From Erysipelothrix anatis (GTDB lineage Bacteria > Bacillota_I > Bacilli_A > Erysipelotrichales > Erysipelotrichaceae), in NCBI RefSeq assembly GCF_009828745.1, contig NZ_WTSX01000012.1:1-64000 (forward strand): a stretch of 64,000 nucleotides of DNA. The letters run 5' to 3'. Positions 2,484 through 40,139 of the stretch are shown here, piece by piece. Under the pieces are notes generated by a model. The model was not told the DNA's origin, made no database searches, and saw only the letters and a program-made list of their open reading frames with translations. Each line of letters begins with the position of its first letter. The first letter of the stretch is position 1. A program made the translations under genes and the position numbers.

Positions 2484-3192
2484 ATAGATTGGACAGTTTT
2501 AAGAATTTGGTATATTTATAATGGTGAATATCAATGGAGTAGTCAAAAATTTCTCCTGTTTTGAACATCGATTTGTTGGTCGAAATTAACGCTGGGTCAC
2601 CTTCTTGCAAACCCAGAAGATGTGCATCACGAAGATTGAGTGGTGCTGCTTCAATAACACGGTCTACATATCCTATTTGCCGATTCAAACCATTACGAAT
2701 GTAATCATAAATGGAGTCATTAATGATATCTTCATTTAGAAACGGAATGTATTGCTTGTTATAGTATGAATATTCAACAACCCATCGTTTACCGTCAATG
2801 ATTCGAAGTCGATTAATGTAATACAATTCTGTACCAACCGCACAGTTCATAATTTCTGCGAGAGATTCAGTTGCGGTGGTCTCATTGAATTCAATGATTT
2901 GTGATTCAATGGTACTGTTTTGAAAATCAGCGGTTAAGCCACGAAAATTTTCTAAATTAATGATTGAATTATCTTGTTGTGCGATATTACGAATAAACAT
3001 ACCGCTTCCTTGAACCGCCATAATATATCCACGTTTTACAAGTGTATCAACTGCTTTGCGAATTGTATTGCGGCTCACGTTGAATTCTTTACCCAACTCT
3101 TCCTCAGTAGGAAGTTTATTGCCATCGCTATAATAACCACTTAATATACGTTGTTCTATGTCGGAACTAATACTCTGATATTTATGTGTCAT
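2482..3192 (-). CDS. GntR-family regulator with UTRA domain
   Basis: A transcriptional repressor or activator of the HutC/FarR-type GntR group. Residues about 5-70 form the winged helix (LPTEEELGKEFNVSRNTIR), and about 80-235 form the UTRA effector domain that usually binds a sugar phosphate. The start is placed at the ATG at 3192 because GGGG lies 6 nt upstream. An in-frame GTG at 3204 and an ATG at 3198 are possible but lack a ribosome site. It is encoded head-to-tail after chbG and convergent to the EIIC unit, which it likely controls together with chbG. That target assignment is inference. Confidence 0.85.
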   Translation of the reverse strand: MTHKYQSISSDIEQRILSGYYSDGNKLPTEEELGKEFNVSRNTIRKAVDTLVKRGYIMAVQGSGMFIRNIAQQDNSIINLENFRGLTADFQNSTIESQIIEFNETTATESLAEIMNCAVGTELYYINRLRIIDGKRWVVEYSYYNKQYIPFLNEDIINDSIYDYIRNGLNRQIGYVDRVIEAAPLNLRDAHLLGLQEGDPALISTNKSMFKTGEIFDYSIDIHHYKYTKFLKLSNL

Positions 3193-34760: not shown

Positions 34761-36413
34761 ATGAAAAACGAAAAGGATTACATTTATATCCATGGCCACC
34801 GTAATCCCGACACGGATTCAATTGTATCAGCGATCGCTTATGCACATTTGAAAAACGAACAAGGGATTCCTGCCATAGCGTGTCGTTTGGGGAAGTTAAG
34901 CGAAGAAACAGAGTACATTCTTGATAAGTTCGGTTTTGAGGCACCAATCTTATTAAAAGATGCACGTGCAACTTTGGATGAAATTGAGTTGGATGAGGCA
35001 ACTGAAATTCATTTGGATACATCGATCAAGGATGCGATGGACATTCTTCAAGAAAAGCGTCAAACGCTTGCTGTCGTTGATGACCGCCATAATCTGGTTG
35101 GGGTTGTTACATCATCAAATTTGGCACACATTGCCATGGGTGATACGGCGCACTCTATTGAACTCTTGAAACGAACACCCGTAGAGAATATTGTAAATGC
35201 AATCGATGGAACACTAGTCTATAAACCTAAAGAATTCCGTTTCAATGGAAAAACTAGCATCGTTGCGTTAGCATCATCAAAGTTAGAAAACTATAATCTC
35301 AAAGACCGTTTGGTCATTTTAGGGAATGATTCAGAAGCCCAGCTTGAAGCAATCAATAAAGGTGCAGCATGTATTGTTGCTGTCTGGACGGAAGAAATTA
35401 GTGATGAAGTCTTACAACATGCAATTGAATTCGGTTGTGCCATTATTTTATCGTCCCATGGTTCAATGAATACGTCACGTTATCTTATTTTTTCGCCAAG
35501 TGTTCGTGAAATCATGACAACCAATTTACTCTACTTTAATAAGAACGAATTTGTAGACGATGTAGAGTCACAGATGCTTAAAACGCGATTCAGATCCTAC
35601 CCAGTTGTTGATGATGATAACCGTATTTTCGGATTTGTCGCACGCTACCATATTCTCAACAGCCCAAGTAAACGTTTGATTTTGGTAGACCATAATGAAT
35701 ATTCCCAAAGTGTTGAAGGGGTGGAAGAGGCTGAAATTCTTGAAGTCATTGACCATCACCGTATTGGAGATTTAAATACGGTTAAACCCATTTATTTCCG
35801 CAACGAAATTATCGGATCTACCGCATCAATTATTACAAAAATGTATCATGAAAATGGTGTCAACATTCCACGTAATATTGCATCTATTTTATTAGCGGCA
35901 TTGATTTCCGATACTTTAAATCTTAAGTCGCCAACAACAACGAAGCAAGATTTTCGCATAGCACACCAACTTGAGGCAATATCAGGATTGGATCGCTACT
36001 CATTCTCGCAAGAGATGTATGAAGTCACGTCATCATTACGAAACAAACCGTATGAAGACATCATTAATCAAGATATCAAGACATTCCACATCTCAGGAAA
36101 AGAAGTTATGGTATCGCAAGTGGTTATTTATCACTTCACCGAACTCGATGCCATCCACGAAACTTTTGAAGAATCAATGGAAGAGTATGTCAATAAACAT
36201 GGCTTAGACTTACTTGTCGTTGTCTTCACAAGTATCGAAGATAATGGATCGATTATTGTTTCAGCGGGTTCATTGAAATCTTCGGTTCTGGATGCCTTCC
36301 CACAATCAGAATCGGACGATCGCTCATTCCTACCTGACGTTGTGTCACGTAAGAACCAGATCATACCAAGGCTGTCGACAGCGATTGCACGTTCAGTTCA
36401 GAAGAAAATGTAA
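34761..36413 (+). CDS. ppaC: manganese-dependent inorganic pyrophosphatase with CBS-DRTGG insert
   Basis: It hydrolyses pyrophosphate in the cytoplasm. DHH-family motifs flank a regulatory insert: HGHRNPDTDS (metal site, residues 10-19), then CBS 1 (about 75-130), a DRTGG-like domain (about 140-250) and CBS 2 (about 255-310), then VDHNE, DHHRIGD and the DHHA2 domain to residue 550. CBS-PPases of this layout are controlled by adenine nucleotides and often by diadenosine polyphosphates. Length is normal for the subgroup. Monocistronic. Confidence 0.93.
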   Translation: MKNEKDYIYIHGHRNPDTDSIVSAIAYAHLKNEQGIPAIACRLGKLSEETEYILDKFGFEAPILLKDARATLDEIELDEATEIHLDTSIKDAMDILQEKRQTLAVVDDRHNLVGVVTSSNLAHIAMGDTAHSIELLKRTPVENIVNAIDGTLVYKPKEFRFNGKTSIVALASSKLENYNLKDRLVILGNDSEAQLEAINKGAACIVAVWTEEISDEVLQHAIEFGCAIILSSHGSMNTSRYLIFSPSVREIMTTNLLYFNKNEFVDDVESQMLKTRFRSYPVVDDDNRIFGFVARYHILNSPSKRLILVDHNEYSQSVEGVEEAEILEVIDHHRIGDLNTVKPIYFRNEIIGSTASIITKMYHENGVNIPRNIASILLAALISDTLNLKSPTTTKQDFRIAHQLEAISGLDRYSFSQEMYEVTSSLRNKPYEDIINQDIKTFHISGKEVMVSQVVIYHFTELDAIHETFEESMEEYVNKHGLDLLVVVFTSIEDNGSIIVSAGSLKSSVLDAFPQSESDDRSFLPDVVSRKNQIIPRLSTAIARSVQKKM

Positions 36414-36417
36414 AGAA

Positions 36418-36450
36418 AAGGAGATTGCTTCATGCAGTCTCCCTTTTTTT
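36418..36450. terminator. terminator between ppaC and the convergent PII-like gene
   Basis: A stem of about 9 bp, GGAGATTGC with GCAGTCTCC (one G-T pair), then a T-tract on the plus strand. The A-rich flank on the other side may serve the minus-strand gene too. Confidence 0.78.
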
Positions 36451-37120
36451 ATTTTGATGTATTGTAATCGTTTAAGCCCATAACCCGACTTGCATCAAGG
36501 GTAAATATGATTCCTTTATTTGGTGATTCAATATCCAATGATTCACGGATTTTTTCCATAATGGCTAATGTTTGATCCTTAGGTGCAAGGATTAATACCA
36601 TATCTTTTTCAGGTTCAATATTTATACCAAAAAGTTTCGGATCGTTTGGATTTGCACGTCCTCGAGCATGAATCACGGTAGCACCAACACTACTAATTTC
36701 TTTTGAAGCATCAATGACTGTATCTGCTTTACCGTGATCAACGATTGTAACTATTATTTCATAACCCATATCGGTTCCTCCTTCTTGGCGACAGTTGTAT
36801 AAGGTTGTCGGTGTCATTCCATAATCAATATCTAAACTAATTGTGGTAATTGTCCCATTCAGACGTTTCTTCCACCGTTTCTTTATATTTTCATAAATTG
36901 CTTCTTCATATGACGATTCAGCAATCAATAGCGCAAGTTCTTTTCGTTGATCTTCAAAGCCAAACCAATTCATCAACATATCATGAATTACGGTATGCCC
37001 TGGAATAATCAATGAACCAAGATATAGGTTAGGGTCTGTGTAATCCAAAAAGCGTGACGCTTGATGTACATTAACAACACCGATGATAAGTTTTAAATGT
37101 GCGAATTGTGTATCGATCAT
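36449..37120 (-). CDS. PII-like protein with two ferredoxin-fold halves
   Basis: A soluble 223-residue protein. The C-terminal half (about 117-215) looks like a PII/GlnK-type signalling domain (GYEIIVTIVDHGKADTVID, GATVIHARG with a T-loop-like segment, then EKDMVLILAPK). The N-terminal half (about 7-105) has a similar strand-helix pattern but is diverged. The conserved PII T-loop tyrosine motif is absent. It is encoded downstream of, and overlapping by 4 bases, a DUF1538 membrane protein, so it probably gates or senses for that protein. The ligand is unknown. Confidence 0.72.
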   Translation of the reverse strand: MIDTQFAHLKLIIGVVNVHQASRFLDYTDPNLYLGSLIIPGHTVIHDMLMNWFGFEDQRKELALLIAESSYEEAIYENIKKRWKKRLNGTITTISLDIDYGMTPTTLYNCRQEGGTDMGYEIIVTIVDHGKADTVIDASKEISSVGATVIHARGRANPNDPKLFGINIEPEKDMVLILAPKDQTLAIMEKIRESLDIESPNKGIIFTLDASRVMGLNDYNTSK

Positions 37121-38583
37121 GATTGAGACCTCTTTTTCTTGTAAATAACACCTAAGATTTGTACAGCAACAATTGGCATCATAGCAATCATCGCAATAAT
37201 ACCAAAGCCATCCACCATAACATTTGCAGTAGGGATGACAGTGGCGACACCTTGTGCGAAAGCAAGTACGAATGTGGCAGTCATGGGACCTGAAGCTACG
37301 CCTCCGGCATCAAATCCGACCCCAACAAAAATAGGTGGTACCTTACGCGAAAGATATAGCGCAAGACCAAATCCTGGGAGTAAGAAGTGCCAAAGCTTAA
37401 TTGAAGGAATCAGAATGCGGATCATTGAAAGACTGACAGCTAGAGCAATCGCAATGGAAAGTGTAATCAGTATAATTCTTTTCGGAATCCCACCAGCAGT
37501 AACATCTTCAATTTGCTCGGTGAGAACATATACAGCGGGCTCTGCTAAAACAACAACGGTTCCTATACCAAACCCAACTAGAACAAGTACGAGTCCAGAT
37601 ACGTCACGTGCGAGTGTCTCACCCATGATACGCCCCACTTCCATAAACCCTGCATTAACCCCAGTTAAAAATAAGGTCAATCCGACAAGTGTATAGGCAA
37701 GTCCTCGTAGTATTTGATGATGGCGCCGGCGTTTTAATTTAAACCCAAAATGATTGAATAAAAGATAGACGATTGTTAATGGAATTAACGTTATGGTGAC
37801 TGCTTGAAATTCATGCGGAAGCATTATTAAAAATGGTTTAAGGATTCCGACAGTCGGAATTACAGCAACCGCATCACCTTGAATTTCCGTAAAGTTAAGG
37901 ATGATGCTCATCAACATAATCATTAATATAGGTCCGATTGAAGCAAGCCCAACAAGTCCAAAACTGTCTTCTTCAGCTGTTTTACCACCTTTAAGCTGAG
38001 AGACACCATATCCCAGTGCTAGGATGAATGGTGTTGTCATGGCACCTGTAGTTGCTCCGGAAGCATCCACTGAAATAGCGAGAAATTCTTCGGAGACAAA
38101 AAATGCCAAAACAAATAACAATCCATAAAAACCGATGAAAAAGCGATTTAAGGATCCGTTGAAGAGGATTCTCAAAAGTCCTACTACAACCATAATTCCA
38201 ACTCCAATTGAAACAATCGTAATAATAAAACTTGGAGCTAAAGCACCCCCTGAAGCGCTAAAAATTTGATTGGCTAAGATAGCAAGATCCGGTTCAGCGA
38301 CTGTTATTAAAAACCCAAGGATAAAGCCTAAAACAATAACTACAATCGTTTTATTTGTTTTCGCAATGGTCTTTCCAAGTAATGAACCAATGGGGGTAAT
38401 TCCAATTTCAGCTCCGAATAGGAAGATACCCAATCCGATGATTACAAAGATGGATCCGATTATAAAGCGAATGAGTACATCTAATGCAAGTGGTGCAATG
38501 GTGAAATGAAGAAGGAGTACGATCGCAACAATTGGCAATACGGACCCAGCAACTTCTTTAAATTTATCTAAAAGTATGTCCAA
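37117..38583 (-). CDS. DUF1538-family multi-spanning membrane protein
   Basis: A 488-residue membrane protein with about twelve hydrophobic segments and an internal duplication. Each half has the pattern VLGFILGFLITVAEPDLAIL or VLVGFGIGTVVVLAEPAVYV, with a conserved Ala-Glu-Pro in the middle of the membrane, and a following GATTGAMTTPF or GGVASGPMTATF. The paired inverted-looking motifs suggest a transporter of unknown substrate. The start is TTG at 38583, supported by AAAGGA 7 nt upstream and the lack of any nearby ATG. It forms a two-gene unit with the PII-like protein. Confidence 0.75.
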   Translation of the reverse strand: MDILLDKFKEVAGSVLPIVAIVLLLHFTIAPLALDVLIRFIIGSIFVIIGLGIFLFGAEIGITPIGSLLGKTIAKTNKTIVVIVLGFILGFLITVAEPDLAILANQIFSASGGALAPSFIITIVSIGVGIMVVVGLLRILFNGSLNRFFIGFYGLLFVLAFFVSEEFLAISVDASGATTGAMTTPFILALGYGVSQLKGGKTAEEDSFGLVGLASIGPILMIMLMSIILNFTEIQGDAVAVIPTVGILKPFLIMLPHEFQAVTITLIPLTIVYLLFNHFGFKLKRRRHHQILRGLAYTLVGLTLFLTGVNAGFMEVGRIMGETLARDVSGLVLVLVGFGIGTVVVLAEPAVYVLTEQIEDVTAGGIPKRIILITLSIAIALAVSLSMIRILIPSIKLWHFLLPGFGLALYLSRKVPPIFVGVGFDAGGVASGPMTATFVLAFAQGVATVIPTANVMVDGFGIIAMIAMMPIVAVQILGVIYKKKRSQS

Positions 38584-38705
38584 AAAATCATCCTTTCTCT
38601 ATTCATACAGTAAAATGTTTGTGTTTGACGCTTTTTAATAAAGCTGCACTATATTAAGTATAACTTATTTTCGAAATTAAACAAAAAATCTACCCGAGGG
38701 TAGAT

Positions 38706-40139
38706 TTAAAGGTCATAGGCATCATTGCGAATTTCTTCTTCAATCCATGTGAATCCATCGCGTGCTAAGAGATCGTGTGATCCCTGAGGACCATTGGTAA
38801 ACGCTGGATAAGTTTCCGGTTCATCTCCTTGATGGTGTCGAATTATGTCTTCAACAAAGGCCCAACTGCGTTTGACTTGATTAAAGCTAGCGAAGAGACT
38901 GTGGTCGTCTTCAAGAGCTGCATTGAGAAGGCGTTCATAGGCTTCAGGCGTATTCATACGGTTTTCATAGTCGCATGATTGGCAGAAGTCCATTAACACA
39001 GATTGTGTTTCATGGGATTGGCCAGGTTTCTTGATGTTGAAGCGTAGGTAGATACCTTCTTCCGGTTGAATTTTGATAATCAAGACGTTTGCCGGTGCAT
39101 GATCTTGTTGCTTAAATTCAACGACTACTTCGGTTATGCGTTTATGCATCCTTTTACCAGTTCGAACATAGATTGGGGTGTTGCGCCATCGTGGTGTTCG
39201 AATACCAAGTTTCAACGCAACAAATGTTTCAGTACGTGAATGCTCATCCACTTTATCTTCATCACGATAGCTCATGGATTCTTGATTTTGTGTATATTGA
39301 CCAAAGATGACGTCTTGATCCATATTTTCAATGTATAAGTTATCGAGAATCGCTTCTTGTGCTTCATGAATTGATGTTGCATCCATTGTTTCAGGTTTAT
39401 CCATCGTTACAATTGATAAAATTTGAAGTAAATGATTTTGGAACATATCTTTGAGTGCACCAGTGTGGTCATAATAGTTTCCACGATTTTCGACACCGAC
39501 AAGCTCATTTGCAGAAATCTGGATATTCGCGATATTATCAGCATTCCAGATATTTTTGAAGATTTCATTTGCAAAGCGAATGGTGAAGATGTTTTGTACC
39601 ATTTCTTTCGCAACATAATGATCAATGCGATAGATATGATCTTCATCAAATATATTGGAAAGTGTGTGATTGATGGATTCTGCAGATTTTAAATCATTAC
39701 CAAACGGTTTTTCGATGATAATTTTACTATCTTTGGCGAGGTTGTGTTTCTCAAGTTTTTGAGCAATTATCTCGAAAAAAGAAGGGGCGACTGCAAAATA
39801 GTAGAGTTTTTTTGCGTTGGCATCGATATCTTGGAACCGTGTGAACAGACGTTCGTAACCTTCATCTTCGGTAAAGGTCATTTCAAAATAGGTGACATGA
39901 TTTAAAAATGCATCGAGGTGGTCATCACTCACATGAATGCGACTATGTTCTTGGAGCCATGGGCGCGCAAGGTCACGGTACGATTCAGAGGTTAGCGGTT
40001 GACGACCAATTATGACAATATGTAAGTGGTCCGGAAAGTTATCCGTGCACTTCAGATTGTAGAAAGCAGGGAGGAGCTTACGATACGTAAGGTCCCCCGT
40101 ACCGCCAAAGATAGTGACAATGTGATTGTCCTTATGCAT
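38706..40139 (-). CDS. zwf: glucose-6-phosphate 1-dehydrogenase
   Basis: First step of the oxidative pentose phosphate pathway, producing NADPH. NADP-binding IFGGTGDLTYRKLLPA is at the N-terminus; the substrate and catalytic segment is RIDHYVAKEMVQN (most enzymes have DHYLGKE, so V-A replaces L-G here). The start at 40139 gives 477 aa, the usual length; longer in-frame versions run into gnd and lack a ribosome site. It overlaps the end of gnd by 8 bases, so the two genes are one operon with gnd first. Confidence 0.93.
   Translation of the reverse strand: MHKDNHIVTIFGGTGDLTYRKLLPAFYNLKCTDNFPDHLHIVIIGRQPLTSESYRDLARPWLQEHSRIHVSDDHLDAFLNHVTYFEMTFTEDEGYERLFTRFQDIDANAKKLYYFAVAPSFFEIIAQKLEKHNLAKDSKIIIEKPFGNDLKSAESINHTLSNIFDEDHIYRIDHYVAKEMVQNIFTIRFANEIFKNIWNADNIANIQISANELVGVENRGNYYDHTGALKDMFQNHLLQILSIVTMDKPETMDATSIHEAQEAILDNLYIENMDQDVIFGQYTQNQESMSYRDEDKVDEHSRTETFVALKLGIRTPRWRNTPIYVRTGKRMHKRITEVVVEFKQQDHAPANVLIIKIQPEEGIYLRFNIKKPGQSHETQSVLMDFCQSCDYENRMNTPEAYERLLNAALEDDHSLFASFNQVKRSWAFVEDIIRHHQGDEPETYPAFTNGPQGSHDLLARDGFTWIEEEIRNDAYDL

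Follow-up and report, generated by a model that had tools for sequence, protein, structure and literature searches.

The DNA stretch analysed here (hereafter, the window) comprises 64,000 nucleotides of a contig of Erysipelothrix anatis and carries, on its minus strand, two overlapping genes. The first one (37117..38583) starts with a TTG codon and encodes a DUF1538 protein of 488 amino acids in which the Pfam family PF07556 is found twice (E 3e-128 overall). The second one (36449..37120) encodes a tandem PII-like protein of 223 amino acids with a P-II match in its C-terminal half. The stop codon of the DUF1538 gene and the start codon of the PII gene share the four bases ATGA (37117..37120, minus strand), in agreement with the original prediction of two open reading frames with a 4-base overlap.

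A terminator-like stem-loop is located after the upstream zwf-like gene (38686..38707, minus strand), detected by a consensus scan whose yield was about the same as in shuffled sequences, and another one, supported by the consensus scan and by the sequence itself, is common to the convergent genes at the other end (36420..36442, unstranded). These flanking stem-loops suggest that the DUF1538 and PII genes constitute their own two-gene transcription unit, a terminator scan being weak evidence. The convergent neighbour (34761-36413, plus strand) encodes a CBS-DRTGG-DHH-DHHA2 protein, i.e., a family II pyrophosphatase into which a regulatory region is inserted. No riboswitch (Na+, c-di-AMP or others) was found within the window or adjoining the operon in the relatives. 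In one relative (L033), a fluoride riboswitch (2904-2975, plus strand) lies directly behind the PII gene and presumably belongs to the next gene; the scan of the relatives otherwise yielded unrelated tRNA and glmS matches elsewhere.

The closest named locus is that of E. aquatica (L022), which contains the same gene pair and whose DUF1538 protein is 98% identical over its full length. Compared with this species, the DUF1538 gene shows a dN of 0.009 and a dS of 0.34, the tandem PII gene shows a dN of 0.012 and a dS of 0.28, and each PII half taken separately gives a dN/dS far below 1. With a dN/dS of about 0.03-0.04, purifying selection acts on both genes: silent changes greatly exceed amino-acid changes, and thus both genes, including the diverged N-terminal half of the PII protein, are being maintained.

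The PF07556 profile scores 425.7 bits on the 488-aa protein against a cut-off of 22.6, with two full copies (E 9.6e-66 and 1.6e-64), and hence the internally duplicated membrane protein that had been predicted does contain two complete DUF1538 domains. The protein is a natural fusion of two DUF1538 units, each of them equivalent to one UmpAB subunit. It had been claimed as well that DUF1538 has no assigned function, but this is contradicted by UmpAB of Halomonas zhaodongensis, in which two paired DUF1538 proteins, both of them required, work as a heterodimeric Na+(Li+,K+)/H+ antiporter (PMC5484666). The activity of UmpAB, with a pH optimum of 9, was established by complementation, co-immunoprecipitation and vesicle assays (PMC5484666). 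In addition, a predictor of growth pH lists DUF1538 among the key families in pH adaptation (PMC13255231). The NCBIfam models of UmpA and UmpB score 157.5 and 136 bits, respectively, on the window protein, far under their equivalog cut-offs (490/500), and thus it is a homologue that is not filed as UmpA or UmpB and whose inferred substrate may differ. By homology, the window DUF1538 protein would be a UmpA fused to a UmpB, i.e., a putative cation/proton antiporter.

An AlphaFold2 model of the DUF1538 protein, built with 49 related sequences (mean pLDDT 88.5, pTM 0.88), predicts that each half crosses the membrane seven times and that two of these passes are interrupted, the first at the AEP motif and the second next to the DxxG motif; the alignments used for the structure models excluded rows from annotated plasmid records. 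Among the 49 homologues, the Lys+Arg counts of the loops alternate along the whole protein, placing the N terminus inside, the linker outside, and the C terminus inside. The linker between the halves (residues 230-248; 37840..37896, minus strand), predicted to be extracellular, has a mean of 2.67 Asp+Glu versus 0.92 Lys+Arg in the 49 homologues. This alternating charge pattern indicates that the two halves are oppositely oriented, which would explain the need for UmpA and UmpB to be made together. Twelve membrane spans had been proposed for this protein; however, two inverted halves of seven spans (7+7 = 14) are a better reading that fits the two broken helices per half of the model, the positive-inside pattern, and the seven segments predicted per UmpAB subunit (PMC5484666).

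The Ala-Glu-Pro motifs pointed out previously are real and almost invariant (E97, P98 and E348, each in 49/49 homologues). According to the model and the homologue alignment, the first motif (residues 96-98; 38290..38298, minus strand) lies at a helix break and contains the invariant Glu97, and the second one (residues 347-349; 37537..37545, minus strand) contains the invariant Glu348. The alignment also revealed an invariant Asp173 (38065..38067, minus strand; VDASGATTG) beside the broken helix 165-178/183-196, and an invariant Asp425 (37309..37311, minus strand; FDAGGVASG) in the counterpart of this helix in the second half. Both Asp residues, as well as Arg389, are identical in 49/49 homologues.

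A search of the PDB with the DUF1538 model gave no confident fold match among the solved structures, and a sequence search of the PDB gave no solved relative. The best fold row, with a Z of 5.5 (rmsd 5.6, 154 residues), was that of NCX_Mj, a Na+/Ca2+ exchanger, and is within the chance range for helical proteins. The rows of NCX_Mj, DASS and EAAT are too weak to establish a fold relationship with DUF1538. It is unlikely that the fused DUF1538 protein moves some other substrate (for instance K+ alone, or else an organic ion or divalent cation) and that the PII protein senses the metabolism of that substrate. The missed equivalog cut-offs, the fact that a single DUF1538 pair has been assayed so far, and the weak structural likeness to NCX_Mj would agree with this possibility, but the acidic and Gly/Pro motifs are invariant in all 49 homologues, and a Z score like that of NCX_Mj is common among unrelated helical proteins. 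The reading that we prefer for the membrane protein is a monovalent-cation/proton antiporter.

PII proteins are mainly known as nitrogen, carbon, and c-di-AMP signallers. The P-II match in the C-terminal half of the 223-aa protein passes the Pfam cut-off narrowly (26.4 bits versus 25), and the N-terminal half of the window protein gave no match in the Pfam scan. The C-terminal half (residues 120-215; 36476..36763, minus strand) superposes on solved PII proteins (VIA Z about 10, rmsd 1.9-2.7 over 85-101 residues) and, as deduced from the structure match, the profile alignment to PDB PII chains and the residue counts, keeps in Lys172 the equivalent of the PII Lys58. The N-terminal PII-like half (residues 9-96; 36833..37096, minus strand) was delimited by alignment and model. 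A predicted structure without the PII fold had been named as a possible refutation; the model of the tandem protein (pLDDT 70) shows the PII-type beta-alpha-beta-beta-alpha-beta order in both halves. Moreover, Pfam detects two P-II stretches in the tandem protein of a congener (L006), and in many genomes the N-terminal and C-terminal halves are separate neighbouring genes, each one matching the corresponding half of the profile. Thus, the two PII-like halves that had been described hold, the C-terminal one by Pfam and superposition and the N-terminal one through the congener, the split genes of the relatives and the order of the predicted fold. A P-II match was found in 30/31 family members, and the closest solved sequence relative is PDB 9p1x chain H (105 aa, 12 chains), a P-II family nitrogen regulatory protein (E 1.7e-6). 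In the lineage of the window the N-terminal half has diverged, losing the GGT and GRG motifs that are kept in congeners. The idea of an asymmetric sensing by the two halves, raised by the original prediction, fits this stronger divergence, as far as it can be read from the sequences.

The residues that would bind ligands depart from those of the canonical PII proteins. In the profile alignment to PDB PII chains the Lys58 equivalent is kept in 29/31 homologues, but Lys90 is replaced in 31/31, and Arg101 is present in 0/31, Gln39 in 1/31 and Arg103 in 1/31. When PROSITE-type patterns were used, neither the uridylylation motif YKGAEY nor the C-terminal signature GDGKIF was found in any of the 31 homologues. 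A canonical GlnB/GlnK identity was thus rejected, since most of the ATP-phosphate and 2-oxoglutarate residues have been lost and there is no uridylylation motif, and the binding of ATP or 2-oxoglutarate in the usual way appears unlikely. PF00543 has no other match in the genome than the tandem PII gene. A link with ammonium transport was discarded as well, because the genome has no Amt gene. The protein shares with PstA/DarA, the c-di-AMP receptor of family PF06153, a PII-like fold and its occurrence in Bacillota, but this identity was also rejected: the window PII protein has no PF06153 match, and the genome has its own PF06153 gene elsewhere. The loss of most canonical residues, together with the presence of this separate PstA/DarA gene, means that the ligand cannot be assumed.

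The loss of most canonical ligand residues could also indicate that the PII-like protein serves the assembly or stability of the antiporter and is not a switch gated by a ligand, a role to which the stoichiometric translation expected from the ATGA overlap would be suited. We regard this as very improbable, because the equivalents of Lys58, Gly89 and Phe92 and the GGT/GRG loop are conserved in most members, suggesting a retained pocket, and because UmpAB assembles in E. coli without a cognate PII.

To determine how general the pairing is, 392 genomes drawn from the phylum Bacillota were searched with a profile of the tandem PII protein. DUF1538 was found in 95 of the 392 genomes, and the PII profile matched 94 of these 95; in the exception (G221), DUF1538 is reduced to a remnant of ~165 residues that is interrupted by a stop. 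In all 85 genomes whose coordinates were compared (84 with listed coordinates plus G418, whose coordinates were taken from the DUF1538 and PII searches), the two genes adjoin each other on the same contig and the same strand, with the PII gene downstream in 84 and upstream in one (G355). The gene pair was also found in two spirochaete MAGs and in alphaproteobacterial plasmids.

The arrangement of these genes varies considerably. The two DUF1538 units (A and B) and the two PII halves are four genes (A, B, PII, PII) in L043; each of the two proteins is a fusion of its own units (AB + PII-PII) in the window, the genus, L022-L026 and others; many genomes have a fused DUF1538 protein followed by two PII genes (AB, PII, PII); and the alphaproteobacterial plasmids L070 and L071 carry A, B and a single PII. 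The DUF1538 protein of a congener (L012), which also has a separate tandem PII gene, continues at its C terminus into a third PII-like domain, and the positive-inside pattern predicts that this terminus is cytosolic. This fusion, together with the repeated splitting and joining of genes that stay linked, is the strongest evidence, from comparative sequence analysis, for a shared function. The proposal of a DUF1538 transporter with a PII-like partner is thereby strengthened, its dedicated character being backed by the conservation of the pair in Bacillota, spirochaete MAGs and plasmids and by the fusion of the congener. Among other variants, three consecutive PII-like genes lie beside DUF1538 in L058 (5463-6388, minus strand), where they are upstream of the DUF1538 genes, and in L065 (4984-5955, plus strand). 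In the congener G006 (L009 1468-2933, minus strand), a break close to the start disrupts the DUF1538 frame, due to a recent decay or to a sequencing error, and the PII gene is intact.

It should be pointed out that four genomes of one family have a PII-like pair (L072 5843-6554, L073 5371-6092, L074 4821-5541 and L075 5636-6356) and no DUF1538 in the genome, and thus the coupling is not absolute. These pairs adjoin a pseudouridine-synthase-like gene that precedes DUF1538 in relatives such as L076 and L077, and it appears that the antiporter was lost and the PII pair was kept. Their loop has drifted (IEPEKE) compared with that of the linked pairs, which is suggestive only; they may be remnants, or they may act on a different target.

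The existence of these pairs bears on a reverse flow of information in which the antiporter would be the sensor, and its conformation or ion load would capture or free the PII protein to act on other cytosolic targets, as AmtB does when sequestering PII. A PII protein that may have another target in these four genomes, and a UmpAB that functions without PII, would be compatible with this proposal; however, in L012 the antiporter itself carries a fused PII domain, and DUF1538 is practically never found without a PII gene, so we consider it quite unlikely.

Taking into account all these data, we propose, with somewhat better than even confidence, that the pair consists of a monovalent-cation/proton antiporter, so assigned by homology, with its own cytosolic PII-type regulator, the gating being deduced from gene linkage. 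The invariant Glu of the AEP motifs and the Asp of the DxxG motifs, at the breaks of the discontinuous helices, probably form the cation/proton site. The antiporter would expel Na+ (Li+, K+) while admitting H+, contributing to salt and pH homeostasis. Co-produced from the overlapping gene, the tandem PII protein would assemble, probably into a trimer or a pseudo-hexamer of PII folds, and would sense a cytosolic small molecule. It would then dock on the cytosolic face of the antiporter and throttle or release the flux, in the manner of GlnK with AmtB and of SbtB with SbtA. The analysis itself establishes the gene pair, its homology and linkage, the natural fusion, the topology signal and the PII fold of the C-terminal half; the transport by the window member, the docking, the direction of the control, the ligand and the oligomeric state are inferred. 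In E. coli, UmpAB is active although no cognate PII was provided (PMC5484666), and thus the PII protein would modulate the antiporter rather than enable it.

The locus is a conserved antiporter-PII module in which an antiporter of a known kind, here fused, is accompanied by a distinct PII-like protein of tandem form. Among the papers searched, none links DUF1538 to PII or describes their pairing, and the public annotation sets a 'P-II family nitrogen regulator' beside 'DUF1538' without comment. If the proposal is true, this pairing of PII with a Na+(K+)/H+ antiporter, both conserved and portable, would extend the PII gating to ion and pH homeostasis, and the PII-annotated gene adjoining DUF1538 would gain a concrete partner. 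In addition, candidate residues (two Glu, two Asp and one Arg) can be pointed out in an antiporter family that has no relative of solved structure. According to a review, the known PII-controlled transporters are those able to act as trimers (PMC10710835), a reservation for the proposed gating, and the module would offer a test of whether the control by PII needs a trimeric transporter.

Compared with UmpAB, the window protein belongs to the same family and has homologous paired units of seven predicted helices each, but it is a single polypeptide, distant in sequence, with a PII gene attached, and the paper on UmpAB makes no mention of PII. As in GlnK-AmtB, a PII-fold protein is encoded beside a transporter and presumably acts in the cytosol; however, the transporter is unrelated, the window genome lacks Amt, and the PII protein differs from GlnK in having no uridylylation motif, a shorter T-loop region, lost ATP/2-oxoglutarate residues, and a tandem instead of a single domain. 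The module resembles SbtB-SbtA in pairing a PII-like protein with a Na+-linked secondary transporter, but SbtA is a trimeric bicarbonate/Na+ symporter and SbtB is a single PII-like domain (PMC10710835, PMC8352866). We tentatively suggest, with a little less than even confidence, that the module represents a class of PII-gated transporters in which an inverted 7+7 cation/proton antiporter without a confident solved match is joined to a dedicated two-domain PII protein, non-canonical for ATP/2-oxoglutarate, and in which PII signalling would serve ion and pH balance instead of nitrogen uptake.
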